Origin: a virus
Virus record (IMG/VR): IMGVR_UViG_3300049740_001889
Coordinates: 1 to 52,086 of that record
Length of the DNA stretch: 52,086 nucleotides
Strand: one strand, 5' to 3'
In this document: in pieces, positions 9,580-37,727 of the stretch
Position numbering within the stretch: position 1 is the first letter of the stretch
Layout of the letters: each line of letters begins with the position of its first letter
Notes under the pieces: generated by a model
The model's database searches: none
Seen by the model: the letters and a program-made list of their open reading frames with translations, nothing else
Told to the model about the DNA's origin: nothing
Translations under genes and position numbers: made by a program

Positions 9580-9583
9580 ATTT

Positions 9584-10881: not shown

Positions 10882-10892
10882 AATTTATTTGT

Positions 10893-11255: not shown

Positions 11256-11274
11256 CTTTTAAAGTTTATTTGTA

Positions 11275-12553: not shown

Positions 12554-12554
12554 A

Positions 12555-12779: not shown

Positions 12780-12801
12780 TATAATTTATTTTTTGTTTAT
12801 A

Positions 12802-12832
12802 CAAATATACGAAATTTATTTCATATATCCAA
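12802..12832 (-). promoter_or_regulatory. Bacteroidetes-type promoter for the gp44 operon
   Basis: Minus strand TTG (12832-12830), 20 bases, TATATTTG (12809-12802). The spacer matches several other promoters here almost base for base (GATATATGAAATAAATTTCG). Confidence 0.85.
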
Positions 12833-13519
12833 GTCTTTTCTTTTTATTTTTTCAATATTCATTGATATTTGTTTAGGTACATTCCATTCTGCTTCCAATT
12901 TAGATATGTTTGGATTTCTTTTCTTAACAAAATCATATATAGATTCAGAGGGTCCTCCTACATTATAAATACCTTCCTTTTCAAATAAAGGGTTAACTAC
13001 ATTAGGCACCTCATCTGACCATATAGAACTCTTATATACATTTGTAAAAGCATGAGAATGTGGAAATGGATACTCTACCATACCCAATCGTAATATTAAG
13101 TATTTATTACATAATTGTACAGCACACTCTCCACCTAGTTTAGACCAACTATATTTGTTGGTAGGTCTAACTGAGGAGTTTTCTGTATGTTGATTATCGG
13201 TTCCACTATAAACATAATCAGTAGAAACATATATTATTTTTTTTCCATATGTGTTACAATACATTACCAAATTAGATGTACCTATTATATTTACATTAAT
13301 ACTAAGGTTGGGTGATTCTTCATGTTGTATCATCGGTCTTGATAAAGCTGCTGAATGGAATAGATAATCAAATTCATAATTATTGAATACATATTCTATA
13401 CTAGCCTCATCTGTAATATCCAATTCTTCTTTATTTAAAAATATAAAATTTGGATTATTTTCTTTTTTAAATTGAGAACATAAGTGACCATCACCTCCTG
13501 TAAATAATATTTTACTCAT
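12821..13519 (-). CDS. RmlD-like nucleotide-sugar reductase (extended SDR)
   Basis: 232 residues from the ATG at 13519, which overlaps the upstream stop by 8 bases; a TTG at 13531 would add four residues. N-terminal F-T-G-G-D-G-H-L-C-S-Q is the NAD(P) loop; Y-V-S-T-D-Y-V-Y-S-G is the RmlD signature; Y-S-W-S-K is the catalytic YxxxK. RmlD reduces dTDP-4-keto-rhamnose; this one could reduce another 4-keto sugar. Slightly short against RmlD (about 290), with the C-terminal substrate lobe reduced. Last gene of the second sugar block; its 3' end covers the -33 box of the gp44 promoter. Confidence 0.75.
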   Translation of the reverse strand: MSKILFTGGDGHLCSQFKKENNPNFIFLNKEELDITDEASIEYVFNNYEFDYLFHSAALSRPMIQHEESPNLSINVNIIGTSNLVMYCNTYGKKIIYVSTDYVYSGTDNQHTENSSVRPTNKYSWSKLGGECAVQLCNKYLILRLGMVEYPFPHSHAFTNVYKSSIWSDEVPNVVNPLFEKEGIYNVGGPSESIYDFVKKRNPNISKLEAEWNVPKQISMNIEKIKRKDLDI

Positions 13520-14513
13520 AGTACCATTCAAATTTATTATTCAATATTTTTTTATATTCATCTATACTATCAATAGTGTTATCACCAATAGCATCTTTGT
13601 AAATCTTATGTAGGAGATTTTCAAATAACAAAATATAATTATGAAGGTGATAATTATTATCTAATAATTTAACACTCAATTCAGTTGATGAAGTGTAATT
13701 CTTCCTAAAAAAATTATAACCATTTAGAGTATCAGTACCACCTGTGTATTTTCTCTCGCTTGATAGCTTTTTTACATTATCATTATATTGATTAGTGTAA
13801 TATAAATAACACCAAAATATATTAGAAAATAAAACACCAGGTTCATTTATTGGTATTTTATAATAATCCTTATCACTTAACTCACTCACTTTATCAAAAT
13901 TACTAAAAATAAAATTTCCAAGATTTTTATCAGTATCAATACTAAAATTTAAAGAAAATTGTTTCAGTTTCAATCCAAGTTCATTTTCAATATTATTTAC
14001 AATCTCTTTCATTCCATTTTTGTGGTAACAAAATAAATGCATATCACTATCAAAAAAGTTTGGATTAGAATCCACTATGGGTATTTGAGTGTAAAAGGAT
14101 ATCTTAGATGTTTTATATTCAGTATAAATTGTTGAAAGTATATCTCTATTAACACAATAAAAGTTATCAGAAATAAACATTAGTTCTGAAGTGTCTTCCA
14201 TTTGATTTATAAACTCATCTATTATTGTAAATTGTATACCTGATGAATATCCATCAAGGGGATTATGTAGTTCAAATTTTATATCTACATTATATTTGGA
14301 TGAAGTAGATTCTATAATAGAAACTATATCTTCTTTTGAAAAAATAGAATCTATACTTTTTTGAGAATGCCAAAAACCAAAATTAATAATTACATTGGTA
14401 GGTATTTTTTTAATACCACCATATAATAAATTCATCACCCAAGTTTCACACTTTAATTTAGAAAAAGTATTTGGATTTGTAAGAATTAATATTTCTAATT
14501 TAGAATTACCCAT
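13512..14513 (-). CDS. Unrecognised protein in sugar block, 333 residues, possible glycosyltransferase
   Basis: No family recognised. N-terminus L-E-I-L-I-L-T-N-P-N is a beta strand of a Rossmann-like fold; F-I-S-D-N-F-Y-C-V-N-R-D-I-L near residue 114 resembles a metal-binding loop of GT-A enzymes but without a clear DxD. Asn, Tyr and Ser are very frequent and Ala rare, as in the protein at 18093, which reflects very AT-rich DNA. The overlaps with an RmlD-like gene downstream and an epimerase upstream (8 bases each) place it in the sugar pathway. Glycosyltransferase is inference from context. Confidence 0.55.
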   Translation of the reverse strand: MGNSKLEILILTNPNTFSKLKCETWVMNLLYGGIKKIPTNVIINFGFWHSQKSIDSIFSKEDIVSIIESTSSKYNVDIKFELHNPLDGYSSGIQFTIIDEFINQMEDTSELMFISDNFYCVNRDILSTIYTEYKTSKISFYTQIPIVDSNPNFFDSDMHLFCYHKNGMKEIVNNIENELGLKLKQFSLNFSIDTDKNLGNFIFSNFDKVSELSDKDYYKIPINEPGVLFSNIFWCYLYYTNQYNDNVKKLSSERKYTGGTDTLNGYNFFRKNYTSSTELSVKLLDNNYHLHNYILLFENLLHKIYKDAIGDNTIDSIDEYKKILNNKFEWYYE

Positions 14514-15405
14514 TCAAATTATATAATGTGTTTAATATTGTTGGAATGACCTGTTTCAATTTATCCATCCGTCTGAACCCAAGGTTATGTATTTTTTCAT
14601 AACTTACATTATAGGAATATTGATTTAATAGAGGAGTATCTACAAAATTTATTTTTAGATTTGGGTTATGCTTTCGTACTATACCAACAATATCAGATAA
14701 TTTTTTATTCTCAGATACTACATTATAAACTCCCTTTGGTAACTTACCATCTATCGCCATCATAATAGAATGATAACAATCCCTTAAACCAAGATATGGT
14801 CTTACTTGGTTATAGTTTTCTTTCCATATAGTTAGTGGAAGATTAAGTGAGGATTGATAACAAAATTTATTTACAGCTGTGTGGAATCTCATTCCTTCAC
14901 TAAATCCGAATATTGTTCCGAATCTAAAAATTACATAATCAATATTAGATTCTTTTAAATAATTTTCTATTTCAATTTTTGATTCTGCGTATGGACTTTG
15001 TGGGTTTAAGAATTGAGATTCATCTTCATATACTTCATCAGCGGCAACACCATATACACTAGTTGATGATGGAAATATAAATTTCTTTACTCCTGCTTCT
15101 ATACACTTATCTATTAATACTTTTGTTTTTGTAATGTTAACATCTTCCATTTCTTTCTTATTACCAAAACTACCAGCAGCATCAGTAATAGCTGCAAGAT
15201 GTAATACAATATCATGTCCATGTAAATCATCAACAGTTAACTCATCAATATCCATTTCTGAAAATTTAATTTGATTTTGTAAATTAAACAGAGAAGTGTA
15301 TCTTTGTGTTAATAAATTATCAACAACCGTTATTTTTTTATTTAAAATATTTCTAATTAAATATGAACCAATGTGGCCACATCCTCCTGTAATTAATAAT
15401 CTCAT
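14506..15405 (-). CDS. NAD-dependent nucleotide-sugar epimerase/dehydratase
   Basis: 299 residues. G-G-C-G-H-I-G-S-Y at the N-terminus binds NAD; H-L-A-A-I-T-D-A-A follows the third strand; F-P-S-S-T-S-V-Y-G and Y-A-E-S-K give the catalytic Ser/Thr, Tyr and Lys. F-R-F-G-T-I-F-G matches the usual strand after YxxxK. Overlaps the FdtA-like gene by 4 bases. Role likely in 4-epimerisation, dehydration or 4-keto reduction of a nucleotide sugar. Confidence 0.85.
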   Translation of the reverse strand: MRLLITGGCGHIGSYLIRNILNKKITVVDNLLTQRYTSLFNLQNQIKFSEMDIDELTVDDLHGHDIVLHLAAITDAAGSFGNKKEMEDVNITKTKVLIDKCIEAGVKKFIFPSSTSVYGVAADEVYEDESQFLNPQSPYAESKIEIENYLKESNIDYVIFRFGTIFGFSEGMRFHTAVNKFCYQSSLNLPLTIWKENYNQVRPYLGLRDCYHSIMMAIDGKLPKGVYNVVSENKKLSDIVGIVRKHNPNLKINFVDTPLLNQYSYNVSYEKIHNLGFRRMDKLKQVIPTILNTLYNLNG

Positions 15406-15809
15406 TTTTTTAGTTTTTTAAAATCATCGTAATCATTTATGTAATCATCTGCATCATAGTGAGTATTACATAACACAAGAAGTATAGTATCTTCTGTTAG
15501 ATATGTTTGCTCATCCCATATCATTTCAGGTATTAAAACAGCCTGATTCTTTTTATTTAAAGTTATGGTTTTCTTCATATATCCATCATCTACTATAACT
15601 TCCAATTCTCCTTGTAAACAAATTAGTATTTGTTGTGTTTTATGATGAGCATGTTTTCCTCTATTATCTTGGTCGTGTACACCATATACATAAAAAATCC
15701 TCTTAATATCAAATGGAACATCACTTCCTCCTTCAATCGGAATCAAATTACCATCATCTTCAATAAATTCTCTGAATCTAAATGTTTTTACATCGTTTAG
15801 TGTTTTCAT
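15402..15809 (-). CDS. Sugar 3,4-ketoisomerase (FdtA/WxcM-like cupin)
   Basis: 135 residues. The FdtA hallmarks are readable: R-I-F-Y-V-Y-G-V, R-G-K-H-A-H-H-K-T-Q-Q as the active-site His cluster, L-Q-G-E-L-E-V, L-I-P-E-M-I-W, and D-A-D-D-Y-I-N-D-Y-D-D-F at the end. FdtA-type enzymes convert dTDP-4-keto-6-deoxyglucose to its 3-keto isomer, the step before a DegT aminotransferase makes a 3-amino sugar. Such an aminotransferase lies two genes upstream at 16994. Overlaps both neighbours by 4 bases. Good family match; whether it is a 3,4-ketoisomerase on dTDP or another nucleotide is inferred. Confidence 0.85.
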   Translation of the reverse strand: MKTLNDVKTFRFREFIEDDGNLIPIEGGSDVPFDIKRIFYVYGVHDQDNRGKHAHHKTQQILICLQGELEVIVDDGYMKKTITLNKKNQAVLIPEMIWDEQTYLTEDTILLVLCNTHYDADDYINDYDDFKKLKK

Positions 15810-16987
15810 ATATCTCCTAATATTTTAACCATTGGTACATGAGTTATTAATTTTCCACCCTTCTCTATCCAATTTCTTTCGTTATTAATTATATAATCTT
15901 TAAAATTCCAAGCTCCTAGGAATATATAATCATAATCATCTAAGTTTACATTATTCCTTGATTTAATAGGGATATGAGAACCTGGTGTTAGTTTGCCTAT
16001 TTTAGTATCACTCGTATCAGATACACATTCAATTAAATCAGAAGTAATACCACAATAATTAAATACAGTAGTTGATTTTGAAGTAGCTCCGTAACTTAAA
16101 ACTTTTTGATTTTTTTCTTTTATTCTGTTTAGTAAATCTATCAAATCTTTTTTTGATTGAGATACTTTGTTTGCGAAACTTAAAATAGATTCTAATTTAT
16201 CTAATCCATTTTCCTTTTCTAAATCTATATTATATTGAACACTTTTATCTATGTTCTTTCCGTTTTTTAATCCAACATATATACGATTACTACCACCATG
16301 AACTGATAAGGTATCTACTTTCTTTATCTCTAAATTATATTTTGATGTAATTTCGTTTATAAATAAAATAGAAAATATATGAGGATGTTCATCATATATC
16401 TGGTCGTATGAATTATTCTGAATCATTGATAATAACGAAGGGTCTTCAAAAACAAATAAACCATCTTCAGATAGTAATTGAGATACCGACCCAAATACAC
16501 CATCAATACCAGGAATATGACAAATACAATTTGCTGAATAGATTAAATCAAACTTACCATGGTTTTCTAATAAAGTATCAACAAGATGAAGTGCAAAAAA
16601 CTCATTATAAGTTTGGTAACCCAATATACCTGTAAGATTTGCTAGATTAGATGATGGCTCTACACATACTGAAGTATCAATATTAAAGTTTTTTATAAAA
16701 CACCCATCGTTACTTCCAATTTCTAAAACAGATTTTGGATTTCTTTTTTGTAATAATTCAGCAGTTTTTCTAAAATGCTCAACCATCGGTTTTGAATTAG
16801 ATGAAAAGTAAGCATAATTTGAATTAAACATATCAGGTGGATTTACTTTATTTTTCTGAGAAAAATGATAAGTATCCGTATCATATGTTGCAACTAGGTG
16901 ATAGAAGGATTCTTTTTCAATATCGTTCCTATCTATGAATGCATTTGCTATTGGTTGCATTCCTAAATCTAAAACATCTTTTACCAT
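15806..16987 (-). CDS. NDP-sugar C-methyltransferase-like SAM enzyme, N-terminal zinc site shortened
   Basis: 393 residues. Begins V-L-D-L-G-M-Q-P-I-A-N-A-F, the end of the zinc-binding N-domain of the TylC3-type C-methyltransferases, but the preceding Cys pairs that family members carry are absent: the gene starts after them and the frame upstream belongs to the aminotransferase end. The SAM domain is intact (V-L-E-I-G-S-N-D-G-C-F near residue 90), as are C-H-I-P-G and the C-terminal V-L-S-Y-G-A-T-S-K-S. Normal length is about 410. It may methylate a deoxysugar ring carbon or act on a related substrate; loss of the zinc ligands may alter it. Confidence 0.75.
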   Translation of the reverse strand: MVKDVLDLGMQPIANAFIDRNDIEKESFYHLVATYDTDTYHFSQKNKVNPPDMFNSNYAYFSSNSKPMVEHFRKTAELLQKRNPKSVLEIGSNDGCFIKNFNIDTSVCVEPSSNLANLTGILGYQTYNEFFALHLVDTLLENHGKFDLIYSANCICHIPGIDGVFGSVSQLLSEDGLFVFEDPSLLSMIQNNSYDQIYDEHPHIFSILFINEITSKYNLEIKKVDTLSVHGGSNRIYVGLKNGKNIDKSVQYNIDLEKENGLDKLESILSFANKVSQSKKDLIDLLNRIKEKNQKVLSYGATSKSTTVFNYCGITSDLIECVSDTSDTKIGKLTPGSHIPIKSRNNVNLDDYDYIFLGAWNFKDYIINNERNWIEKGGKLITHVPMVKILGDI

Positions 16988-16993
16988 ATTATT

Positions 16994-18100
16994 TTATTTA
17001 AAGTTATTTAAAACTTTTATTATTTTTTTCATTTCAGATTTTTTTAGAGAAGGAAATATTGGTAGGTTAAATATTTCTTTTGAAAAAATCTCCGTATTCT
17101 TTAATTTTTGTTTTTTTAAAAAAGAGTATCCTTTCATTTGATGAATCGGATATGGGTAATTTATATTAAAGTACACTCCTTTTGATTTAGCATATTCTAT
17201 TATCTCATCTCTTCTCTTGTGTCTAACTACAAAGTTATAGTAAACTGTATTTGGTTTATGTGGATGAAAACTTATACCATTTAATTCTATGTTATTAAAA
17301 TAGTAGTTTGCTATTTTGTTTCTATTATCAATAAGTTTATCTACTGATTTTAGTTTGTATCTCAATATAGATGCGTGTATTTCATCCAATCGTGAGTTCA
17401 TTGTTAATCTAGCATCTTCAGTTGTATAATATCCCTTACTTCTATCGATTCCATGAAATCTCATCCTTTTAAGTTTTTCATAGTTAGATTTATCATTACA
17501 TACAACCATTCCACCATCACCATATGAACTCAATACTTTAGTAGGATAAAAGGAAAAACAAGATGTATCCCCAAATGTACCAAGTTTTTTTCCATTGTAA
17601 CTAGAACCAAATGATTGAGCACAATCTTCTATTAACTTAATATTATTATTTTTACAAATCTTTTGTAAAATATCTATTTCACAACAATTACCAAATAGAT
17701 GAACTGGTATAACTGCTTTTGTTTTTTTAGTTATATTTTTTTCTACCTCAGATACAATCATTTGATAATCAACACCAACATCCACAAATACAGGTGTTGC
17801 TCCACTCATTACAATTGCATTAACAGTAGGGATAGCTGTATTGGATTGTGTAATTACCTCATCGCCTTTACCTATACCAAACAACTTTAGTGATAGATAC
17901 AATGAATCAGTACAACTATTAGTACCAACTGAATATATTTTATCTTCTGATAAATAATTTGAAAATTCTTGTTCAAATAAAGATAATTGGTTTCCTAAAA
18001 TAAAGTTACCAGATTTTAAAACTCTGAATATTCCTTTTATTATAGATAAGCCATCTCGAATTGATTCTCGGATTCCATTAAATGGAGTAATTTTATACAT
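16994..18100 (-). CDS. DegT/DnrJ/EryC1 family sugar aminotransferase
   Basis: 368 residues from the ATG at 18100; a TTG at 18112 is possible. Fold-type-I PLP features: G-T-N-S-C-T-D-S-L near residue 56, I-E-D-C-A-Q-S-F-G with the cofactor Asp, and S-F-Y-P-T-K-V-L with the Schiff-base Lys. P-V-H-L-F-G-N is also characteristic. It transfers an amino group onto a keto sugar; with the FdtA-like isomerase the likely product is a 3-amino-3,6-dideoxyhexose nucleotide, as in FdtB. Overlaps the upstream gene by 8 bases. Confidence 0.9.
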   Translation of the reverse strand: MYKITPFNGIRESIRDGLSIIKGIFRVLKSGNFILGNQLSLFEQEFSNYLSEDKIYSVGTNSCTDSLYLSLKLFGIGKGDEVITQSNTAIPTVNAIVMSGATPVFVDVGVDYQMIVSEVEKNITKKTKAVIPVHLFGNCCEIDILQKICKNNNIKLIEDCAQSFGSSYNGKKLGTFGDTSCFSFYPTKVLSSYGDGGMVVCNDKSNYEKLKRMRFHGIDRSKGYYTTEDARLTMNSRLDEIHASILRYKLKSVDKLIDNRNKIANYYFNNIELNGISFHPHKPNTVYYNFVVRHKRRDEIIEYAKSKGVYFNINYPYPIHQMKGYSFLKKQKLKNTEIFSKEIFNLPIFPSLKKSEMKKIIKVLNNFK

Positions 18101-19349
18101 AACATTTATCAATTATTTCTTCAATATTAACTCTAAGTATATCTATATAACCATTATCCATATCATTATATAAATTTAGTAAATCAGAATCAATATCCGA
18201 AGTTATAGGTAAGCTTAGTAGTTTTTTTAAACTTGAACTTATATTATTTGTTTCTTTTAATAAATATTGTAATTTAGATATATCTGCATTATTGTTTTTA
18301 GAAAAAATATTAATTGTTTGTTCTAAGATAAAAATAAAGTGTTGTTTATGTTGATTGAATTTTACGATAGAAATAAAATATTCACTCGGTAAAGAATCTA
18401 TCACCTCCTTGACGTTATTAAATTTTTTGTTTAAATTTTTTTTATAAAAAATAAAAAGAATTAATTCTAACAAAAAAGGTCCTGCCTCTATTCCATTTCT
18501 CAAAAAAGAATTATTATTAAACACATCCAATGGAACGCGGTCATCCTCATCAAAATCTGAGTAACTATCTGTATATTCTATCCTTGGTATAGTTTTGTTT
18601 TGAATATCATCTGGCCACCAATCTGAAACACCAAATAAAAATGTTTCGGATATTTTAAAAGTATCTCCATTTGGATACATTAGTTTAATCTTAGGATTAT
18701 TATCAATTTCTTTTAAATAATCAAAGAATATGTTATTATTTATTACAAATAAATTTAATGTATCTACACCCATATTTAAAATATTATTTTTAAAATCAGG
18801 TTCTTTAAAAAACGCATTTGTAAATATAAATGGTACGTTTGTATTGTTTAAGTGAGTTATTGCTTTTGATAAACTAGATGTATCTATTACTAAAGAATTT
18901 ATTGATTTAAATACATAAAAATCATATTCAGTATAAGTGTTCTTAAATGTATTACCAATTATATTAAAATGATTATCAGAACTATAATTTTTAGTATTAC
19001 TTGAATTTGTAATTTTTATAGTTTTAAATAAATTTGTAAAATGTTTATTTTCTTTTACAATTTCATCTACAATTTCTTTTATATTATTTTGGGATTTTAA
19101 AAAACTTTCATTAATTTCTAATTGAACATCATGAAACTTATCTGATTTGTATTTGTTAGTATCAATTGAATAGCGTATCAATGAAGAAAATTTATCTGTT
19201 ACTAAAGCTTGCCAAGTATCAATATGAAGATGGAATTCATAATCTCCCAAACTTTTATTGATAAAACGATTACACTTTAAGAAAAATAATTCTAAGGAAC
19301 TTTTATCTACACATGGATTAGTAACAGTATGTATTAGAATTTTTTTCAA
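18093..19349 (-). CDS. Unrecognised large protein heading the second sugar block, 418 residues
   Basis: No family recognised. Starts with a probable TTG codon at 19349 giving K-K-I-L-I-H-T-V-T-N-P, a plausible first strand of a Rossmann-like or GT fold; I see no in-frame ATG just upstream. W-W-P-D-D-I near the middle and many Asn/Ser/Ile residues are notable. No signal peptide or membrane helix. It is the first gene after the terminator of the TonB-dependent receptor, with a leader so short that its start lies about 25 bases from the hairpin. Perhaps a glycosyltransferase, by context only. Confidence 0.5.
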   Translation of the reverse strand: MKKILIHTVTNPCVDKSSLELFFLKCNRFINKSLGDYEFHLHIDTWQALVTDKFSSLIRYSIDTNKYKSDKFHDVQLEINESFLKSQNNIKEIVDEIVKENKHFTNLFKTIKITNSSNTKNYSSDNHFNIIGNTFKNTYTEYDFYVFKSINSLVIDTSSLSKAITHLNNTNVPFIFTNAFFKEPDFKNNILNMGVDTLNLFVINNNIFFDYLKEIDNNPKIKLMYPNGDTFKISETFLFGVSDWWPDDIQNKTIPRIEYTDSYSDFDEDDRVPLDVFNNNSFLRNGIEAGPFLLELILFIFYKKNLNKKFNNVKEVIDSLPSEYFISIVKFNQHKQHFIFILEQTINIFSKNNNADISKLQYLLKETNNISSSLKKLLSLPITSDIDSDLLNLYNDMDNGYIDILRVNIEEIIDKCYV

Positions 19350-22182: not shown

Positions 22183-23253
22183 TTATAGTAAATGTGGTTT
22201 TGCTTCGTTGATACCTGAATTAGTAACTTTAACATAAGGTGGATTAAAATCTTCTAACGATTTAGCACCACCATACGATAGTGCAGATTTCACTCCATCA
22301 ATTAACCCATTCACTATGAACTTAACTCCGCCCTTGTAGGGAATGGTAGTGGATTCTCCCTCCACATTTCTGGTCTGTTGACCATGTGTTACTTTGGTTT
22401 CCAACGAGGCTGAACCTCTATATCTTTTATAAAGACCTTTGGGTGTTTCAACAATCTGACCTGGTGCTTCATCAGTACCAGCGATTAATGAACCCAACAT
22501 AACAGAACTCGCTCCAATTGCAAGAGCTTTTGATATATCACCACTTGAACGAATACCTCCATCAGCCATAACGGGTGTTTTCGCAACAGATGTAATATCT
22601 TCAATACAACTTACATTCGGTACACCGAATCCTGTCTTAACTCTTGTAGTACAAAGTGAACCTCCACCGATTCCAACTCTCAACCCATCAGCTCCCCAAG
22701 ATTCCAATTCTTGAGCTGCTTCTTTCGTAGCGATGTTACCAGCAATAATATCCACCTTATCATCAAGGTTATTTTTACACCACATCAACATTTTTTCAAC
22801 GTTTTTGTGATGACCATGAGCAACATCAATAACGATAATGTTACAACCATTATCTACTAAAGATTTTGCTCTATCTTTATCACTTTCACTTACTCCAATG
22901 GATGCCATAATTGGTATATGAGGAATTTCTGAATGCCAATCATCAACCATGACTCCCCATGATTCAAATTGACCTCCCCAATCTTCGGAATAAATTCTGT
23001 GATATAGTTCTTTTACAATGTTTGATTGTTCTTCTATTGAATTAAACCTATGGATACAACCAACTCCACCAAGTTTAAACATTTTATATGCCATTTCTAA
23101 CCCACAAACAGTATCCATCGGAGATGCTACTATTGGATTTAAAAGGCCGTATCTACGAGATACGAGAGTATGTAATTTGATTTGAGTACGAGTAGGAATA
23201 TTCGAGTACTGAGGTACTAACTGAATATCATCGTATGTTAGAGAGTTTCTCAT
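22183..23253 (-). CDS. IMP dehydrogenase/GMP reductase family enzyme without CBS domains
   Basis: 356 residues, a single TIM barrel. Begins L-T-Y-D-D-I-Q-L-V-P-Q-Y-S; the catalytic Cys loop is G-G-G-S-L-C-T-T-R-V-K-T-G, closer to the C-T-T-R-V-K-T-G of GMP reductase than to IMPDH. The nucleotide-phosphate loop (M-A-D-G-G-I-R) and I-A-G-N-I-A-T are present. The CBS pair that IMPDH inserts after about residue 100 is absent, and the length fits GMP reductase (about 345). The C-terminal part (I-P-Y-K-G, S-Y-G-G-A-K) is more IMPDH-like. It would shift guanine and adenine nucleotide pools during replication. Overlaps the GroES gene by 4 bases. IMPDH or GMPR is undecided. Confidence 0.85.
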   Translation of the reverse strand: MRNSLTYDDIQLVPQYSNIPTRTQIKLHTLVSRRYGLLNPIVASPMDTVCGLEMAYKMFKLGGVGCIHRFNSIEEQSNIVKELYHRIYSEDWGGQFESWGVMVDDWHSEIPHIPIMASIGVSESDKDRAKSLVDNGCNIIVIDVAHGHHKNVEKMLMWCKNNLDDKVDIIAGNIATKEAAQELESWGADGLRVGIGGGSLCTTRVKTGFGVPNVSCIEDITSVAKTPVMADGGIRSSGDISKALAIGASSVMLGSLIAGTDEAPGQIVETPKGLYKRYRGSASLETKVTHGQQTRNVEGESTTIPYKGGVKFIVNGLIDGVKSALSYGGAKSLEDFNPPYVKVTNSGINEAKPHLL

Positions 23254-23558
23254 CTAATAAAACCTAAAAGTTCGTGCTCATGGAAAATAAGAAGTTCCTC
23301 ATCATCTATTTTTATAGTATCAGTTGATTCATTTTTTTTATAAAGAACAGAATCTCCTACTCTTAAAAATGATGGAATTGGTGAACCAGTTTGTGAGAAT
23401 ATACCTGTTCCAATAGAAACTATTGTACCATATACTTTCTGTCCTCTATTGATTGAATCGGTAAGAATCAATCCTCCTTTACTTTTCTTTTCTTCTGATT
23501 TAGAATCAGGTCTTACTAAAACTCTGTCTCCGAGTGGTCTGAAATTACTCATCGTCAT
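23250..23558 (-). CDS. GroES-like co-chaperonin (functional counterpart of T4 gp31)
   Basis: 102 residues. F-R-P-L-G-D-R-V-L-V is the GroES start, followed by K-G-G-L-I-L-T (mobile loop region), G-T-I-V-S-I-G-T-G, V-G-D-S-V-L-Y and E-L-L-I-F-H-E-H-E-L at the end. GroES caps GroEL; T4-like phages use gp31 for the same task when folding the capsid protein. This one looks like true GroES rather than diverged gp31. Start at 23558, or 23552 (M-S-N-F). The start overlaps the preceding 47-residue gene, and the stop overlaps the guaB/guaC-like gene by 4 bases. Confidence 0.9.
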   Translation of the reverse strand: MTMSNFRPLGDRVLVRPDSKSEEKKSKGGLILTDSINRGQKVYGTIVSIGTGIFSQTGSPIPSFLRVGDSVLYKKNESTDTIKIDDEELLIFHEHELLGFIR

Positions 23559-23702: not shown

Positions 23703-25340
23703 TTAAGGTTTATAAAAAACGAAGATTGGTTCAAATTTATATGCCTTTCCTTCGTACTGAACTGCATTCTTAATTCCACTCTTAGAAGGGTCTAATCCAA
23801 CCATTCGTGTCATTAACATTTTAAGTTTTCCTTTATATTCACATCCTAATTCATTTAAGATATCTATTGAATCTTGTTCCAATGGATAGTAAGTACTTTC
23901 ACCAATCTTAATATCTGCAATATTCCAAAGAATATATCTATCATTCTTAAGGTACTCATAAATCGTTGTTAGAGTAGGTTTTAAGAAGTTATCTCTCCAA
24001 TCTTCATACTCACCATAAGCTTTGAACGATTGGTTCTCATCTTGTGAATATTGTTCTCTATTAAAGTAAGGAGGCGAAGTAAATGAAATATCTAATTTAC
24101 CTTTATACTTTTGGAACTCAGGATTGTTTTTAATTAACTCCGAACCATCTTGAAATAATTCGTATGTGTTACCTTGTGGTGTTACATCGAAGAATGATGT
24201 AAGTTTATCTGAATAATTATCTACACAATTATCATTAAAGAACTTAGCAACATATTCATAACGAGAAATACCTTCATCATCTAGGAAGTTATCAGGATTA
24301 GGGTCGGTACCAACATAATGAATTTTCTTACGAGAACTCATTGCTCCTAAGATTCTACCACCCCAACCACTTGATGAATCATAAATATGTAATGGTTCAT
24401 CTGTATCAATGTGTTTGGTATAGTTTTCGTAAATCCATTTAGCAGTTAATGCTGGAAAGTTTACAGCTGGTTGTCCACAACTTAATCTGAATACTTGTAA
24501 TATTCTTGGGAATATACCTGAATCCTTCTCATACCAACGTATTTGATATACATAAGTTTGTGTTGTACCTGCTTCAGATGTCCATGAAGATTCAATTCTA
24601 TCTATATTAGATAACTGAGTATCTGATAAGAAACCATCATCTTTTAGTTGTTGAACTTGTTCCGATTTAAGGTATAGGTTTTTAGAACCAATAAATGCTT
24701 GATTAAAAGTACCATAGTTTGATATAGTTCTTGTATTTACTTTAGCAATCCAAATACCTAAATCAGAATATTTACCATTAAATATCTTTCCATTATGAAC
24801 ATCTTTGATAAAATCAATAGCACCTTGTCCATTCCAAAAAGGATTTTCATCTTTCTTATCTACAATTGAACGAGACCAAGAATACATAGAATCTCTTTTA
24901 ACTGCTCGTTTCATAATACGAACAAATTTATCTTCTAATTCTGGGTCTGAGAAGTGGTCGTAAATAGATAATCCTCCTTCTGCCGATTTACCAGTTGATA
25001 TTTTAGTTTTTAACATTGTAGGAAAAAACTGATTTACAACTGAGGCATCTTTATTAAAGTTTTTAATAATACCCAATGATTCATCATCACCACTTAAATC
25101 CTTTTCCCAATAATCTGCTGGGTTAGATTTAAGTTTCTTGAATTTTTCAATAATACCTTCTTCATCTCTACCAATTACTGGTGGAGTACCTCGTTCATCC
25201 CATTGTGCAGTAACCTCTTTACGGAGTAAACGAGCCCATACCACAAACTCATCATCAGTCATTTCTAACAACTGATGATAAGTAGTATTGGATTTAAACT
25301 CGGAAAACTTACTTCTTTCGTAAAAGTGTTTGTTACTCAT
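23703..25340 (-). CDS. SPPY-type methyltransferase-like protein, 545 residues
   Basis: The C-terminal half carries a SAM-binding motif I-like Y-D-S-S-S-G-W-G-G-R-I-L, then Y-V-G-T-D-P-N, then motif IV F-T-S-P-P-Y-F, the N4-cytosine/N6-adenine amino-methyltransferase hallmark. The N-terminal ~300 residues have no recognised domain and may recognise the target. A hydrophobic-aromatic end (E-P-I-F-V-F-Y-K-P) is shared with the paralogues at 29470 and 30672. Adjoins the sliding clamp gene at one base. DNA methylation is likely from motifs; another nucleic-acid or nucleotide substrate remains possible. Confidence 0.7.
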   Translation of the reverse strand: MSNKHFYERSKFSEFKSNTTYHQLLEMTDDEFVVWARLLRKEVTAQWDERGTPPVIGRDEEGIIEKFKKLKSNPADYWEKDLSGDDESLGIIKNFNKDASVVNQFFPTMLKTKISTGKSAEGGLSIYDHFSDPELEDKFVRIMKRAVKRDSMYSWSRSIVDKKDENPFWNGQGAIDFIKDVHNGKIFNGKYSDLGIWIAKVNTRTISNYGTFNQAFIGSKNLYLKSEQVQQLKDDGFLSDTQLSNIDRIESSWTSEAGTTQTYVYQIRWYEKDSGIFPRILQVFRLSCGQPAVNFPALTAKWIYENYTKHIDTDEPLHIYDSSSGWGGRILGAMSSRKKIHYVGTDPNPDNFLDDEGISRYEYVAKFFNDNCVDNYSDKLTSFFDVTPQGNTYELFQDGSELIKNNPEFQKYKGKLDISFTSPPYFNREQYSQDENQSFKAYGEYEDWRDNFLKPTLTTIYEYLKNDRYILWNIADIKIGESTYYPLEQDSIDILNELGCEYKGKLKMLMTRMVGLDPSKSGIKNAVQYEGKAYKFEPIFVFYKP

Positions 25341-29469: not shown

Positions 29470-30690
29470 TTATTTTTTCCAAATCCAAATTGGTTCACCA
29501 AACGCAATATCTGATGTATCTTTTGTTTTCTCTTTAAGATGTTCTTCGAAATATTCACTTTTTGCGTTTCCTGCTCCACCTGAATTAAATCGTTTAGTCA
29601 TCTCCATTCCAATACAACCATAATAACTCAATCCTTGTGATTCTAAAAATTCATTCATAGGATTACAGATATCAAAATAATCTTTTTCTTTTGGATTGTA
29701 CACATCTGCAATATTCACTGCCAATATTCCACCTTCTTTCAATGTAGGAATTATATTACCAAGTGTTTTCTGTAAAAAGTTTTTATTCCACTCTTCTATT
29801 GTTTTATATCTCACCCAACTTTGAGTATCCTCATCTGAATATCTTTCAACATCAAAATAAGGTGGTGATGTAAATACAGTATCGAAGTGATTTTTATATT
29901 TAGAAAAATCTACATCTTCAGCTGGTGAACAAATTAAATCTACTTCTTTTGGTTCTTCAAAGAATGTTTGATTCTTTTTGTAGAACTCAACTTGTTTTTT
30001 ATAGTTAGGATGATTTAAAGTGTTTGGGTCAATACCAACATAATGTTTAGTAGTTTCACCACAATAGAATCCTGCCAATCTATCTCCCCAACCTGCTGAG
30101 AAATCCAATACATTTTCTGATTTGAAGTAATCGTAGAATGCCTTTGCAATAGATGGTTTGAATTGGGATGCCACATACTTTCGTAATGTAGTTGCCATTC
30201 TGATTGATTGTAAATCTACTTTGGTTAGAACCTTTTCTAAACTCCAAAATGCTCTAACAATAGTTTTGATTCCTTTTACTGTCTGCCAAGTTCTCCAACC
30301 TGATGGGGTTCTTGTCCAATCTACCTTCCATCGATTTTCGATATGGAATGGATTAGATGCATTATTACCTTTATTATCTCTTTTGAAATACTTTGATGTT
30401 AATGGATATTTTGATTTTCTTTCGTTCCTAGGAAACCATTCCTTTTCTACCAATAAATTCTTAAATTTAATTCCTTTTAAAAGATTTAATGATTTCAGAG
30501 TTTCTTTTTCTGAAATATCTGGTATAGGACAAGGATAGGTATGTAAACATTTTGCGAGTTCTTCAACCACCTCATCTTTTTCATATGTTTTCATAATATG
30601 TTGCCACTCATCTTCTTCAATTTGAAGATAAGGTTTCATATTATAATATTTCTTAAATACTTCTTCTATGTTTATTTCTGAATTATCCAT
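29470..30690 (-). CDS. SPPY-type DNA methyltransferase-like protein (paralogue 1)
   Basis: 406 residues. Motif I region V-L-D-F-S-A-G-W-G-D-R-L-A-G, then Y-V-G-I-D-P-N, then motif IV F-T-S-P-P-Y-F, and V-N-I-A-D-V-Y after it. Closely related along its whole length to the next gene, including D-T-Q-S-W-V-R-Y-K and the C-terminal G-G-A-G-N-A-K-S. Overlaps that gene by 19 bases. The motif order (I before IV) and SPPY sequence suit amino-methylation of DNA bases; no target-recognition domain is recognised. Confidence 0.75.
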   Translation of the reverse strand: MDNSEINIEEVFKKYYNMKPYLQIEEDEWQHIMKTYEKDEVVEELAKCLHTYPCPIPDISEKETLKSLNLLKGIKFKNLLVEKEWFPRNERKSKYPLTSKYFKRDNKGNNASNPFHIENRWKVDWTRTPSGWRTWQTVKGIKTIVRAFWSLEKVLTKVDLQSIRMATTLRKYVASQFKPSIAKAFYDYFKSENVLDFSAGWGDRLAGFYCGETTKHYVGIDPNTLNHPNYKKQVEFYKKNQTFFEEPKEVDLICSPAEDVDFSKYKNHFDTVFTSPPYFDVERYSDEDTQSWVRYKTIEEWNKNFLQKTLGNIIPTLKEGGILAVNIADVYNPKEKDYFDICNPMNEFLESQGLSYYGCIGMEMTKRFNSGGAGNAKSEYFEEHLKEKTKDTSDIAFGEPIWIWKK

Positions 30691-31904
30691 ATTGGTTCAC
30701 AAAAAGTTTGGTTTTGTGTTTCTTCTGCTAATTTTAAACTTTCTTCTGAATATTGTTCACCATCTTTAGCAGTTCCTGCTCCACCACTATTAGGTCTCTT
30801 TGCCATTTCCATACCAATACAACCTTTGTAAGTTAATCCTTGTGATGTAAGATAATCAATCATTGGATTACAAATCTCCAACCATCCCTTATCACCTTTG
30901 GAACTAGCATATACATCAGCTATGTTCACTGCAATAATACCACCCTTCTTTACTGTTGGTATAATCTTACCAAGTGCCTTATGTAAGAAGTGTTCATTCC
31001 ACACATCAATGTTTTTATATCTTACCCAACTCTGAGTATCATCATGTGAATATCTTTCTACTGAGAAATATGGAGGTGATGTAAATACTACATCAAAGTA
31101 CTCATTATATTCAGAGTAATCAAAATCTTCTGCTGGTGATTCATAGAACGTTGTTTTAGTTGGGTTCTCAAAGAAAGATGTATGTTTAGTATAGAAATCT
31201 CTTTGTTGTTCGTAAAACGGATGATTTTCTTTACGAGGGTCTAACCCTACATAATGTTCAACTGTTTCACTACTAAACGCTCCTGCTAATCTATCACCCC
31301 ACCCCATTGAGAAATCAAGTACGGTCTTAGCATTATTCATATCATAGAACATCTTGGCTACATTTGGTTTAAATTGAGCACATATGTATTTTCTCAACCC
31401 AATCATTGTTCTTAATTCTTTCTTACCAACTTGTGGTAACTTTAAAGAATAAGCTGCACCCATTAGTGATTTCATAAATGATTTTGTTTCCCAAGTTCTT
31501 TTTGGACCTGGTGAAACCGAACCATCTACACTCCATCTGTTATGTTGTTGGAAGTAATTAGATGCTTTGTTACCTGTATTGATACGAGAAAAGTATTGTT
31601 GTTTTCCATCGTATGTTAGTGAATACTTAGATTCAGCTGCTTTTCGTGGAAACCATTCACCTTCTTTTAGATACTCACTCCATCTAAAACCTTTTAATTT
31701 AAGGTAATCATTATAAGCATCCTCTTCGGTGATATCTGCATATGGTATTGGATATTCCATAAACAAATCAGCCAACATTTCCTTTACCTCATCTTTTGGA
31801 TAAGTTTCTTTTAATAATTCGAAATCGTGTTCTACAATTGTTGGAAATTCTCCATCATATACACCTTTTCTATACTTTGATAATATATCTTCTCCACTTG
31901 TCAT
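30672..31904 (-). CDS. SPPY-type DNA methyltransferase-like protein (paralogue 2)
   Basis: 410 residues, the tandem partner of the gene at 29470: V-L-D-F-S-M-G-W-G-D-R-L-A-G, Y-V-G-L-D-P-R, F-T-S-P-P-Y-F, V-N-I-A-D-V-Y, C-I-G-M-E-M-A-K-R-P-N-S-G-G-A-G. The duplication is old, since the two differ throughout. The ATG (31904) sits at the edge of the 25-base tandem repeat 31903-31952. Both paralogues share motif layout and the end E-P-I-W with the 545-residue protein at 23703, so this phage carries three members of one family. Confidence 0.75.
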   Translation of the reverse strand: MTSGEDILSKYRKGVYDGEFPTIVEHDFELLKETYPKDEVKEMLADLFMEYPIPYADITEEDAYNDYLKLKGFRWSEYLKEGEWFPRKAAESKYSLTYDGKQQYFSRINTGNKASNYFQQHNRWSVDGSVSPGPKRTWETKSFMKSLMGAAYSLKLPQVGKKELRTMIGLRKYICAQFKPNVAKMFYDMNNAKTVLDFSMGWGDRLAGAFSSETVEHYVGLDPRKENHPFYEQQRDFYTKHTSFFENPTKTTFYESPAEDFDYSEYNEYFDVVFTSPPYFSVERYSHDDTQSWVRYKNIDVWNEHFLHKALGKIIPTVKKGGIIAVNIADVYASSKGDKGWLEICNPMIDYLTSQGLTYKGCIGMEMAKRPNSGGAGTAKDGEQYSEESLKLAEETQNQTFCEPIWIIQK

Positions 31905-33061: not shown

Positions 33062-34849
33062 TTATCTTTTATACGGATTTAAATCTGCCGTATCTTCCAA
33101 ATCAGAATAAGTTGTAACTATGAAGTTAAGTGGGTTATCATGTTCATCTGTTACTGATGCATAATGTTTCTCAATATAATCTTTATAATGAGCATCATTC
33201 CACTTATCAACAACAAGTACAAAATGTCTAGCACTTCTTTCATGACTTGATAATGCAATCAACCTATCAATGTGTTCCCAAATTTTATCAGTAAAAAACT
33301 CAATAATCATTGTAGGTTTTTCACCTTCCTTCTTGAACATCATATCAATTTGTCGGTGTTCATATTTGTTACTTCCACCATAAGATAAAATGTTTTTATT
33401 CATAATATCAGATGGTTTCAATTCATAATTTGAATAATGAACAAGATTCTGAACGATTTGGTTTCCTTTACCAGAAAGGATTAAATCACCAATTCTATCA
33501 GTTTCTTTATCTTCAGCCTTTCCAGCTCTTGCTGTAATTAAGGCCTTTTTATTACCTTGATTTCTATCAAGATAATCTTTAACTTCCTTTTTACACTTTT
33601 CTACAAGTGTAATCGGAACATCAGATGATTTCTGAGCTAATTCGTATTCAGAAACCCCTCCCTTATGTCTACAAAGAATAGTAATTCCAAGTGGAAAAGA
33701 ACTACCCAAATCTACAATAGAGTGGATAGTACCTTGTTTATTCATGTAGATAAGTTTAGAGTGTCTTAATCGAGTAACTCTGCTTTTATCACCTCTTAGA
33801 ATCTGTTTTTTAACAGATGATGTGGATTTAATACCACAATCTTTAGTAATAGCTTTTAGCATTTTACTATACTTAGCTGGTTCAGTTTTTTGAGCAACAT
33901 CTGTATAAGCTCTCAACTCATATTCAGCAGTATAATCTTCATAACCTTTAAACTTCTTTATAATAATAGGAAGTTGGGTATATGATTTTACAACTAAATC
34001 ACCATTGATATCTGCTGGGTAGTAAGATTGAAACTTCTTCATTACTTTATCTTCGAATTTAAATTTAACATCTAAATTTGGAAATTCAATTGTTTGTTCA
34101 CTTACACATCTCATAATTTCTTTTTGATTATAAGAATCTTGTGGTAAAATACTTTCAATATCATCGTATTTTTTTACTCCAATAAAGAATTTTGGTACAT
34201 CTGAAAAAACATCAGATGAAAAATCACCATCATTAGAAATTGTAAACTGACAAAGTAATTTATATTGTGTTTCAGTTATAGAGAGTTCTTCAAGGAACCA
34301 ATTTGTTCCACTAAACTCAGCAGCTTTGAAAGTATCGCTGATACCTTCATATCGTATAAAATAAGCTTTGTACTCACTTCCTCTCTTAGATAAAATATAA
34401 TATGGTAAACCATGTTTAGCCATAAAGATTTTAGTTCCTAATCCTGAAAACGAACCTTGAGAAGCTTTACCTCCCATAATTCTTGGTTTTAGTAATCTAT
34501 TTAGAATACTATCTAAATCAATAGAATCTCCATTATTACCAAAGTACAAAAAGTCATTAGTTAACAAACAACCAACCTCACTTGCACCAAAATCATTACC
34601 ACCCTCAACTATTTCATTAAGATAAGTGTATTTTGGAGAAACAAGTTGTTGATTTCGCATTCCTAAGTAACTTAGTAGATTATCATAAACTAATTCATAT
34701 CGAATAATCGAATCGGAATTTTCTCTAAGATATTCAATTAATCCTAAAGTATTAACTCCTGATGGAGAAACAAATTCTAAAAGGTTTCCATCAATTCCTT
34801 CTAAATTCCTAACTGTTTGGGTCGTAGGCACCGCAAGTGTTTCTAACAT
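33062..34849 (-). CDS. Putative GHKL ATPase fused to nuclease-like C-terminus, 595 residues
   Basis: Residues about 75-150 resemble the GHKL (Hsp90/MORC-type) ATP fold: an N-box-like N-E-I-V-E-G-G-N-D-F-G-A-S, a G1-like F-G-N-N-G-D-S-I-D, and a G2-like G-S-F-S-G-L-G-T-K-I followed by a strand (Y-Y-I-L-S-K-R). The G1 Asp is replaced by Asn. Near residues 500-525, H-R-Q-I-D-M-M-F-K then M-I-I-E-F-F is placed like a PD-(D/E)XK core, but the usual Lys is Phe. The middle is basic (S-R-V-T-R-L-R-H-S-K). It has its own promoter and a leader of about 168 bases. No family name recognised; GHKL is moderately supported, the nuclease part weakly. Confidence 0.5.
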   Translation of the reverse strand: MLETLAVPTTQTVRNLEGIDGNLLEFVSPSGVNTLGLIEYLRENSDSIIRYELVYDNLLSYLGMRNQQLVSPKYTYLNEIVEGGNDFGASEVGCLLTNDFLYFGNNGDSIDLDSILNRLLKPRIMGGKASQGSFSGLGTKIFMAKHGLPYYILSKRGSEYKAYFIRYEGISDTFKAAEFSGTNWFLEELSITETQYKLLCQFTISNDGDFSSDVFSDVPKFFIGVKKYDDIESILPQDSYNQKEIMRCVSEQTIEFPNLDVKFKFEDKVMKKFQSYYPADINGDLVVKSYTQLPIIIKKFKGYEDYTAEYELRAYTDVAQKTEPAKYSKMLKAITKDCGIKSTSSVKKQILRGDKSRVTRLRHSKLIYMNKQGTIHSIVDLGSSFPLGITILCRHKGGVSEYELAQKSSDVPITLVEKCKKEVKDYLDRNQGNKKALITARAGKAEDKETDRIGDLILSGKGNQIVQNLVHYSNYELKPSDIMNKNILSYGGSNKYEHRQIDMMFKKEGEKPTMIIEFFTDKIWEHIDRLIALSSHERSARHFVLVVDKWNDAHYKDYIEKHYASVTDEHDNPLNFIVTTYSDLEDTADLNPYKR

Positions 34850-35076: not shown

Positions 35077-35907
35077 TTAGTAACCAACGTTCCAAAATAA
35101 ACAATCTTTCTTACCAAATTCTTTTACGAATCTCCAGGCCTTAGCATCATAGGTAATTGCCGATTGGAATGGGAGAGCATTTAATTCAGCTTCTTTAACT
35201 GGTTTATCGAATTTATATTCACTTCTATAATAATTTGCTCTACCAATTTCTCTCTCACTCATTGTGTGGCCAACCGATACTATATTCATTGGTAAATCAG
35301 GAAATGCAAGTGCCAATCCTCTAGCCAAAGTTCCACTAGAAGCAACACTCCAAATTTCTGATATCTTAGTTGGGTCTATATGTTTTCTAGCAACCTTAAT
35401 AATAGAAGCAATTACTGTTGGATGTTCTAATCCAATTGGGAATTGAATTCTTTCTTCTGGATTCTCTTCAACATATTTTCTTGCTCTTGATTGTGTTACT
35501 GATAACATTCCCATATTAACCCATTTGTACTCTGCACCAAGTGCCATACCTCTCAATTGATAATCATGATAGTTTTCAGGTCTACGTTTAGCCATAAACA
35601 AAACAGTTTTTTTATCGTACTTGTTTGTTACAGCTGGTAATGATATCTGAGCATATCCTGTAGCAGGTGATGAACCGAATACAATTTCTTTATGAGGTGT
35701 ATCTCTGATAAACTTATCTACAAATCTAATCTTTGCACCATAATCTAATAATTCATCTTGTACTACAAATACATCATCAAACTTTGTAATGATTGGGTCT
35801 GGATTAGGGTCTTCCCAATCTTTTACCAATTCCAACAATTCATCTACTGTCCAAAACCTACCATTATTATCTTCGTATGTAGGTTCTAAAAATTTACTTA
35901 TACTCAT
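35077..35907 (-). CDS. Fold-type-II PLP-dependent enzyme-like protein
   Basis: 276 residues. V-Q-D-E-L-L-D-Y-G-A-K-I-R-F is placed like the Schiff-base Lys loop of the ACC deaminase/cysteine desulfhydrase/threonine synthase group (usual form GGNKxR). F-G-S-S-P-A-T-G-Y-A matches the following Ser/Asn phosphate loop, and V-A-S-S-G-T-L-A-R-G-L-A the later Gly/Ser loop. Shorter than most fold-II enzymes (about 320-350). It abuts the upstream 155-residue gene, forming the last step of a three-gene operon with a dioxygenase. An amino-acid lyase or transfer reaction is possible; substrate unknown. Confidence 0.6.
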   Translation of the reverse strand: MSISKFLEPTYEDNNGRFWTVDELLELVKDWEDPNPDPIITKFDDVFVVQDELLDYGAKIRFVDKFIRDTPHKEIVFGSSPATGYAQISLPAVTNKYDKKTVLFMAKRRPENYHDYQLRGMALGAEYKWVNMGMLSVTQSRARKYVEENPEERIQFPIGLEHPTVIASIIKVARKHIDPTKISEIWSVASSGTLARGLALAFPDLPMNIVSVGHTMSEREIGRANYYRSEYKFDKPVKEAELNALPFQSAITYDAKAWRFVKEFGKKDCLFWNVGY

Positions 35908-36375
35908 TTACCAAAATTTTGTGTTAACTTCTTTTTCTCTTTCTTCTGGCAGATTAAAATCTAAGTGTTCTGCCAGTAATCTTGTTCTCTTTGATGGGCC
36001 TTTGTTATTTTTAGTTGTCATAAAATAACATATCTTTGCATTTGAATAATCTACTTCTTCATAGTTTGGAAATTGGTCAATAGCCAAATCAACTATTTGA
36101 TTATCTGGCCACATAATGAATCTATGTAAACCATCATCGCCAGGTATACCAGGTAACTTAAAAGGTTTAGAACCTTTTGGTGAAAGATAGTAGTAAACAA
36201 ACTCAGCAATTACATAACAATAATTTTTAGTAGGATTATCCTCAGTCCAATTATCTTTCATTGCTTTTGTTTTAAGATGTTTCTTTCCCATCTTAATAAG
36301 AGCTTCGTGTAACTTTTGTTTTTCAATACCAGCTAAACGAAACATTGATTGTAACTTTTCTTCTTCTATTCTCAT
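35908..36375 (-). CDS. Small protein with Cys/His/Asp triad-like pattern, 155 residues
   Basis: Y-C-Y-V-I-A-E-F-V-Y-Y near residue 52, then L-H-R-F-I-M-W near 83 and I-V-D-L-A-I-D-Q-F near 95, an order (Cys, His, Asp) seen in transglutaminase/papain-fold proteins and in a widespread uncharacterised phage family with a YC..SE, HWF and D.T..QF layout. The N-terminal 45 residues are basic and helical. Overlaps the upstream dioxygenase gene by 4 bases (ATGA) and abuts the PLP gene. Catalysis is not certain. Confidence 0.5.
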   Translation of the reverse strand: MRIEEEKLQSMFRLAGIEKQKLHEALIKMGKKHLKTKAMKDNWTEDNPTKNYCYVIAEFVYYYLSPKGSKPFKLPGIPGDDGLHRFIMWPDNQIVDLAIDQFPNYEEVDYSNAKICYFMTTKNNKGPSKRTRLLAEHLDFNLPEEREKEVNTKFW

Positions 36376-37727
36376 TCTATATAATCATCAGGTTGTTGTG
36401 TAGTAGGATATTTATCAGCTCCTTTTTCTAACCACCTTCGTGTTTCAGAATTTGATTGAATATCAATAATTAAATGATACCTATCTTCATCACCAAAGTT
36501 AATTGCTGTATGTGGTTTTCTCATATCCAAGTACCAACATTCTCCTAATCCCATTCTTAGAGTAGTTGATGAACCATCATAGTTCCATTGTGTAAACTTA
36601 ACATCAGGATTAGTTTGTAGTGGAAAATGAATCCTTGTCCATTGTCCATCACCAATACCAGCATCTTTATCTTGTCTATCAGTATGTCTTTCCAATTCAC
36701 CTTCACCTTTTGATAATCTTAAGATTCTGATTCTTTCTATATGTTTATCTTCATCTTTAAGATGTGGTAATTCTTCTTGTAGTAATTTAACAAAATGTTC
36801 TACTTCTGTTACAGTTTTTCTCAAAGGAGTATCTTCTACCCCCCAATCTAATTTTTCCTTATTTTCTTTTTTCCAAGAGTTTGTCATCTCTGCTGGTTTG
36901 ATAATAAAATCTACCAATCCACCATAACCTTTTACTACCATTCCTCTCCAACTATTTCCTTTATTGTAGTTTGAATAATGATTAGCGAAATCATCCATGT
37001 TTAATTTAAGGATTTGTTCCATTATCTTTGATGTATCTTGAACTGGTACATCTAATTTTTGTAGAGAGAGTTGTTGAGCTCTTTCAATAGGAGTATAATC
37101 ACCACCCTTTACCCAAATACCATATACATCAGCAAATGATGTAATAATATTATCAATACAAGTAAATCCAAGATTTTCTAATATAGTTCTATTTCTTTTT
37201 AACTGATTATCTATTTCTACTAAAGTAATAGGTTCCTCATCTTCAAAGAAAGAAGAAGTTTGTGGTTTAGCAATATGTTTTTCTACTAACTTCTGTAACC
37301 ATTCTTCATAACCAGGATAACAAGCCATTTCTTTTATGTACTTATCACCTCTTGATTTTTGAAGAACATATGTTTGATTACAAAATGAATTTACATTTTT
37401 ATTCTGTGTACTCATTTTGTTTAAATCATAAAATAATATAATTGCTTTTATTTTACCTTCATCATCTTCAACCCAATCAACTTCCTTATATTCATTTTTT
37501 TTCATATGACCAAGGAATTGTTGTATTTTATATTTGTTTATTTTTCTGAATGGGTCTCTTAATCGTGTATTACCATCTGTTTTAAATGGTTTTACATCTT
37601 CTGGTCGTTGTGTTTCATGAAAGCAATTTAAAATCTCATCATATATTAATGATTTAGAATAATCCCATGGATTACTTCCATCTTTTGTAGGTGCTGTGTA
37701 TTCTTTGTTCCAATCTCTAAATTTCAT
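36372..37727 (-). CDS. 2-oxoglutarate dioxygenase (Asp/Asn beta-hydroxylase-like) with unknown N-terminal domain
   Basis: 451 residues. The C-terminal part (about 335-440) has E-R-H-T-D-R, the H-x-D iron site, W-T-R-I-H-F-P-L, and K-P-H-T-A-I-N-F-G with the distal His, then R-Y-H-L-I-I-D-I, as in the aspartyl/asparaginyl beta-hydroxylase domain. The first ~220 residues resemble a GNAT acetyltransferase in outline (A-I-I-L-F-Y-D-L-N, then N-R-T-I-L-E-N-L-G-F-T), a loose match. First of three coupled genes (hydroxylase, triad protein, PLP enzyme). Target may be a protein side chain or a small amino-acid compound. Confidence 0.7.
   Translation of the reverse strand: MKFRDWNKEYTAPTKDGSNPWDYSKSLIYDEILNCFHETQRPEDVKPFKTDGNTRLRDPFRKINKYKIQQFLGHMKKNEYKEVDWVEDDEGKIKAIILFYDLNKMSTQNKNVNSFCNQTYVLQKSRGDKYIKEMACYPGYEEWLQKLVEKHIAKPQTSSFFEDEEPITLVEIDNQLKRNRTILENLGFTCIDNIITSFADVYGIWVKGGDYTPIERAQQLSLQKLDVPVQDTSKIMEQILKLNMDDFANHYSNYNKGNSWRGMVVKGYGGLVDFIIKPAEMTNSWKKENKEKLDWGVEDTPLRKTVTEVEHFVKLLQEELPHLKDEDKHIERIRILRLSKGEGELERHTDRQDKDAGIGDGQWTRIHFPLQTNPDVKFTQWNYDGSSTTLRMGLGECWYLDMRKPHTAINFGDEDRYHLIIDIQSNSETRRWLEKGADKYPTTQQPDDYIE

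Follow-up and report, generated by a model that had tools for sequence, protein, structure and literature searches.

The stretch of DNA analysed here (the window) spans the 52-kb record of a marine phage, in which T4-like replication genes (gp32, RecA, DnaB, RNR, PolB and clamp loader) were identified. Three consecutive genes on its minus strand encode a PF05118-type oxygenase, a YunG-like protein and a pyridoxal-phosphate (PLP) enzyme (Table 1). The oxygenase and YunG genes share a 4-base overlap (ATGA) and the PLP gene starts at the base right after the YunG stop codon. The coupling reported in the first-pass annotation was thus confirmed from the open reading frame coordinates and by reading the sequence, and the three open reading frames are intact, coupled and real genes. 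A 595-aa protein that lacks a family match (window 33062-34849) is encoded between the PLP gene and an HD-like gene, which in relatives comes directly after the PLP gene. Further regions of the window comprise a long sugar-nucleotide/glycan cassette (371-19349), including FdtA, a DegT aminotransferase, a C-methyltransferase, epimerases and GT2/GT4/GT29-like transferases, and a phage IMPDH/GMP-reductase-family gene that overlaps a Cpn10 (GroES-like) gene (22183-23558).

Table 1. Genes of the operon and candidate partner methyltransferase (MTase) genes in the window.
Feature	Position	Strand	Length, motifs and evidence
Asp/Asn-hydroxylase-type 2OG/Fe(II) oxygenase (AspH), gene 1	36372..37727	-	451 aa; PF05118, structure model, invariant residues
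YunG-like protein, gene 2	35908..36375	-	155 aa; PF24585 below cut-off, 64 homologues
Compact fold-type-II PLP enzyme (predicted), gene 3	35077..35907	-	276 aa; phrog_7093, homologues PF00291, K59 in 159/159
MT1, partner MTase homologue	30672..31904	-	Motif I GWGDR, TSPPY; PF01555 E 4.6e-4, phrog_12517 E 7.5e-9
MT2, partner MTase homologue, in tandem with MT1	29470..30690	-	PF01555 E 3.3e-5, phrog_12517 E 9e-16
MT3, partner MTase homologue	23703..25340	-	Motif I GWGGR, TSPPY; phrog_12517 E 4.4e-11

Residues 245-424 of the oxygenase were matched by PF05118 (Pfam; E 2.5e-11, 44.1 bits against a gathering cut-off of 22.6). The C-terminal catalytic domain (residues ~215-430) contains H348-x-D350...H406 and R416, and this iron triad (H348, D350, H406) and 2OG arginine were conserved in 150/150 homologues. 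The AlphaFold (AF2) model (pLDDT 83) was most similar to L-proline cis-4-hydroxylase (4p7w; VIA Z 15.3, 3.1 Å over 183 residues), followed by a nucleoside-antibiotic beta-hydroxylase and then human AspH (Z 14.3 for the latter). The protein belongs to the Asp/Asn beta-hydroxylase family, with the HxD...H triad and the 2OG arginine placed in a double-stranded beta-helix, in line with its previous description as an Asp/Asn-hydroxylase-like dioxygenase. An extra N-terminal domain (residues 1 to about 210), which had been overlooked, shows a GNAT-like order of strands and helices in the model. This order is suggestive of a GNAT identity; the domain had no Pfam or PDB-sequence match, GNAT included, and was barely sampled by the VIA comparison, whose rows for the oxygenase cover mostly residues 193-429.

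The YunG match of gene 2 (PF24585; E 3.9e-5, 24.2 bits) lies just under the Pfam cut-off of 27. Residues C53, H84, D96 and Q101 were invariant in 64 homologues, which bears out the initial view of a Cys/His/Asp protein. A possible transglutaminase fold, which had also been put forward, is unproven, as the model (pLDDT 79) yielded no PDB match at E <= 0.001, transglutaminase/papain-like folds included.

Gene 3 was assigned to phrog_7093, annotated as "threonine dehydratase" (E 6.6e-31). The window protein itself matched no Pfam family at E 0.1, including PALP (PF00291), and its homologues in phages ZS04 and Mae-JY30 scored above the PF00291 cut-off. The Schiff-base lysine K59 was present in 159/159 homologues and S191 and G192 in 156/156; the protein further contains a phosphate loop (SSGT, residues 190-193) and the C-terminal motif YDAK..W...LFWNVG. 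On the level of sequence, the homologues and the invariant lysine and phosphate loop identify the protein as a compact fold-II PLP enzyme, as had been assigned before. Its remote kin are ACC deaminase-like, with the homologue from phage Vincenzo matching 1j0a (E 5.5e-12), and include Ackermannviridae PLP proteins, in which YEGK...LFWIVG corresponds to YDAK...LFWNVG in the window. A host metabolic origin of the gene was rejected, since a search of genome contigs returned a single match, an 11-kb MAG contig.

At least 497 IMG/VR contigs encode a homologue of the PLP enzyme, and 148 were found to encode one of the oxygenase. After removal of loci more than 90% identical, 61 loci were retained, 49 of them with a PLP gene and 40 with an AspH gene. 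Within 6 kb of the 49 nonredundant PLP genes, an SPPY MTase gene was present in 33 loci, AspH in 27, either of them in 38 and YunG in 7; the 40 AspH loci contained an MTase in 30 and a PLP gene in 28 cases. All of these counts are lower bounds because of truncated contigs. Given its presence in 7 of 49 loci, YunG is therefore regarded as accessory. In one variant tied to thymidylate synthesis (L097:6837-8783), ThyX (PF02511), YunG and PLP genes follow one another with 4-base and longer overlaps and without AspH. The full trio is arranged in one order in several divergent groups of viruses, among them contigs of 130-170 kb, and is contiguous across diverse marine virus contigs, with PLP identities in full trios down to about 62%. 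Recurrence of the PLP enzyme and the oxygenase extends to dozens of distinct lineages, and their catalytic residues are invariant; neither the scattering of the genes nor the loss of these residues, which the first-pass annotation had named as arguments against the operon, was seen.

The recurrent neighbour of the trio is an amino-type SPPY DNA MTase. The first-pass annotation had seen no matching partner gene, but three copies are encoded in the window itself (MT1-MT3). Relatives of MT1 abut or overlap PLP or AspH genes, and those of MT3 immediately precede AspH or follow PLP. Other phages carry the same core as a ParB-MTase (phrog_498/12517). In locus L149, a single 918-aa chain comprises ParB-MTase, the N domain and AspH, and its gene overlaps the PLP gene that comes next. 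The ParB-MTase chains of Erythrobacter phage ZS04 and Pseudanabaena phage Pam4 have the PLP domain within them. In Microcystis phage Mae-JY30, the gene order is ParB, MTase, PLP, and in Vincenzo, the ParB-MTase gene overlaps the ACC-deaminase-like PLP gene. Among 65 nonredundant loci encoding ParB-MTases with an arginine in motif I (Arg-type), 32 contain a PLP gene, mostly with a 4-base overlap, and four contain AspH between the MTase and PLP genes, the order being MT-AspH-PLP wherever AspH is present. Chance proximity of these genes is ruled out by their recurrence, overlaps and fusions, and the fusions are decisive for the functional unity of MTase, oxygenase and PLP enzyme. In several loci, a second MTase-like gene in which the catalytic PPY is replaced (TSVPD or TSLPD) is located directly after AspH or PLP (L155:4865-5515 and L150:6561-7211, both in cluster c39, and L307:4882-5505); it may encode a degenerate or altered DNA MTase of the same pathway.

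A second coupling was observed for the ParB-MTases. In ZRG1 and P2559S, whose hosts are unrelated, a SAM-decarboxylase gene (PF02675) overlaps the ParB-MTase gene. Among ParB-MTases with the motif I AGD(S/T)(V/A)FG, a SAM-decarboxylase gene was present in 48 of 51 nonredundant IMG/VR loci, mostly overlapping, the sample having been retrieved in part by means of a pattern that included FAGD and so set the motif but left the neighbour free. It was absent from all 76 loci with the motif I AGGxVRG (65 + 11, the two samples not being cross-dereplicated). This split is significant when phylogeny is ignored (Fisher p 8e-32). Conversely, PLP or AspH genes were found near AGD-type ParB-MTases in 0/80 of the contig loci retrieved, such that the two groups are mutually exclusive for the PLP gene as well. 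The decarboxylase of P2559S (SpeD) is a bona fide AdoMetDC (PMC9992855); all others are assigned by similarity, and among the SpeD homologues of phages, ornithine and arginine decarboxylases also occur (PMC10407285). The motif-I arginine is kept in MT1-MT3 and in every SPPY relative with a readable motif I, and its position is occupied by threonine in the solved MTase 2zie. On the simplest reading of these sequences, decarboxylated SAM would serve AGD-type enzymes as an aminopropyl donor, and the arginine of AGG-type enzymes would bind the carboxylate of SAM. Some Arg-type ParB-MTases have none of the listed partners and could simply methylate. The window MTases are distant from the ParB-MTases, with similarity detected at PHROG/Pfam level only, and have no recognisable ParB domain, so the SAM-arm reading extends to them indirectly.

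As MTase genes overlap and are fused with those of the PLP enzyme and the oxygenase, we infer that the system acts on DNA and very probably mediates base hypermodification. Of the targets initially suggested for a small modification pathway, the hypermodified base thus gained support, whereas a free amino acid and a protein side chain did not. With moderate confidence, we assign the trio as the tailoring half of a post-replicative module with the chemistry proposed below, whose installing half would be the SPPY MTase (MT1, MT2 and MT3 in the window, a ParB-MTase in many other phages). First, an Arg-type MTase homologue would move not the methyl group of SAM but its 3-amino-3-carboxypropyl (acp) arm onto phage DNA, at the exocyclic amine of C or A, producing an alpha-amino acid on the base, which would fit the substrates of PLP enzymes and proline-hydroxylase-like oxygenases. 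An amino acid as the group to be tailored is favoured by proline cis-4-hydroxylase being the nearest solved oxygenase and by the AspH homologue of LilMcDreamy, whose gene adjoins that of an amino acid:DNA transferase (PF18724). The general proposal that these "methyltransferases" transfer the acp or aminopropyl arm of SAM or decarboxylated SAM to a base is, in our judgement, evenly balanced. The oxygenase would then hydroxylate the side chain of the base-linked amino acid, and the fold-II PLP enzyme would remodel it in the following step. Decarboxylation to a primary amine would be the most likely PLP reaction and is put forward tentatively. For YunG, acyl transfer or hydrolysis by Cys-His-Asp could follow; this function and that of the oxygenase N-terminal domain are guesses. 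In the sister branch, SAM would be decarboxylated first and used by the AGDxVFG-type ParB-MTase, leading to an aminopropyl base more directly. The product of the PLP decarboxylation would be the same as the aminopropyl product of this branch, a convergence that is attractive.

Two other DNA-directed explanations were considered. In classical thymidine hypermodification (ViI, M6), 5-hydroxymethyl-dU is made, the transferase ADDT attaches an amino acid, and PLP enzymes, oxygenases and others trim it. This route is unlikely here: no ADDT, thymidylate-synthase-type or Tet/JBP gene was present among the Pfam-scanned open reading frames of the window, whose 52-kb record may be a fragment, and the partner gene that keeps recurring encodes an SPPY amino-MTase. 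It is nevertheless in agreement with the distant PLP homologues in Ackermannviridae, kin of ViI, with the ThyX-YunG-PLP locus described above and with two annotated phages. In Glutamicibacter phage Montesquieu, the PLP gene overlaps a gene annotated as aGPT-PPlase clade 2 (an annotation without Pfam confirmation), and in LilMcDreamy, Tet_JBP-like, ADDT and AspH genes occur together, the AspH homologue adjoining the amino acid:DNA transferase ADDT (PF18724). The product of LilMcDreamy gp2 (L035:855-1787) is annotated as queuine tRNA-ribosyltransferase, likely wrongly to judge from its weak Tet_JBP match (E 0.0022, below cut-off). Equally improbable is that the MTase only methylates, with the PLP enzyme and oxygenase further processing an adduct, methyl-type or other, through reactions that do not involve the amino-acid arm of SAM. 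While the MTases do keep SPPY/CPPY and match PF01555, methylation leaves unexplained both the presence of amino-acid-type tailoring enzymes and, in the same family, the SAM-decarboxylase coupling and motif-I covariation.

A role in auxiliary metabolism, in which a free amino acid or cofactor is the substrate of the PLP enzyme and oxygenase and their genes are merely co-located with DNA-modification genes, would suit the free amino acids on which fold-II PLP and AspH-type enzymes mostly act and the proline 4-hydroxylase that is the closest solved relative of the oxygenase. It is rendered quite improbable by the single-polypeptide ParB-MTase fusions, the 4-base overlaps in many lineages and the lone match among genome contigs. 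Modification of virion protein side chains, as might be suggested by the action of AspH proper on proteins and by the Cys-His-Asp set of YunG, is highly improbable given that the genes are coupled to those of DNA MTases and ParB and not to structural genes.

If the acp-transfer module is correct, hundreds of virus contigs would encode a chemically new way of modifying DNA bases. Transfer of the SAM amino-acid arm is known in tRNA, and we know of no instance in DNA. It is quite possible, if a little short of an even chance, that there is a large undescribed viral class in which an MTase fold transfers the acp or aminopropyl arm, PLP, AspH and YunG proteins sculpt the product, and the change from AGGxVRG to AGDxVFG marks the donor. 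A function would then be assigned to many phage "DNA methyltransferases" and "threonine dehydratases", with predictions testable on cultured phages. The modification would probably protect phage DNA from bacterial defences; modified DNA should then withstand many restriction enzymes, and the module would be a source of new DNA-labelling enzymes. A literature search returned no description of the module, parts of which may have been predicted before (Iyer 2013 and Lee 2022, outside the search).

The individual components have known counterparts. The oxygenase has the fold and metal triad of L-proline cis-4-hydroxylase and the Asp/Asn beta-hydroxylases (PF05118) and differs from them in its extra N-terminal domain, in the fusion of its L149 homologue to a ParB-MTase and in its substrate, which is presumably DNA-bound. 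The PLP proteins share the fold-II superfamily with ACC deaminase and D-cysteine desulfhydrase but are shorter (about 235-276 aa), virus-specific and coupled to DNA MTases. With phage ParB-MTases (phrog_498/12517), the window MTases have a homologous MTase core in common, whereas they lack a detectable ParB domain and their motif I reads GWG(D/G)R, not AGGSVR. In ViI and M6 (5-NeOmdU, 5-NedU), DNA-bound amino acids are reportedly trimmed by PLP enzymes and others, as attributed to Lee et al. 2018/2022. Amino acids on DNA and PLP enzymes, with distant homologues in ViI kin, would be features of both systems, but the amino acids of ViI/M6 are installed on 5-hmdU by a kinase and an amino acid:DNA transferase, neither of which was found in the window. 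To judge from the neighbourhoods in LilMcDreamy, Montesquieu and Vincenzo, the tailoring enzymes seem to be exchanged among pathways for attaching amino acids to DNA.

By analogy, the nearest described logic would be that of the carboxymethylcytosine system CmoA/CmoX/CmoY of Synechococcus phage S-B43, in which an MTase homologue is paired with the synthase of a SAM derivative (PMC12783734). CmoX has a C5-cytosine MTase fold with SPPC, uses Cx-SAM as donor, the carboxylate of which is bound by a key arginine, and installs a reactive DNA handle to which an amino acid is ligated next; ParB-domain genes are often nearby, and no N4/N6-type carboxymethyltransferases were found (PMC12783734). The terms PLP, dioxygenase and hydroxylase are absent from that report (PMC12783734). 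In locus L154 (6500-8930), an AspH homologue adjoins a gene that resembles C5-cytosine MTases and has the SPPC motif of CmoX, possibly reflecting a carboxymethylcytosine pathway with a hydroxylase. The window MTases carry SPPY, not SPPC, and are of the PF01555/phrog_12517 type. Unlike CmoX/CmoY, the present system would thus employ an SPPY/CPPY amino-type MTase that is coupled to a SAM decarboxylase (in the sister branch) or to PLP/AspH, whereas the pairing of a SAM-derivative synthase with an MTase homologue that installs a reactive handle, a key arginine for the carboxylate of the donor, the amino-acid chemistry that would follow and the frequent proximity of ParB-domain genes would be common to both.
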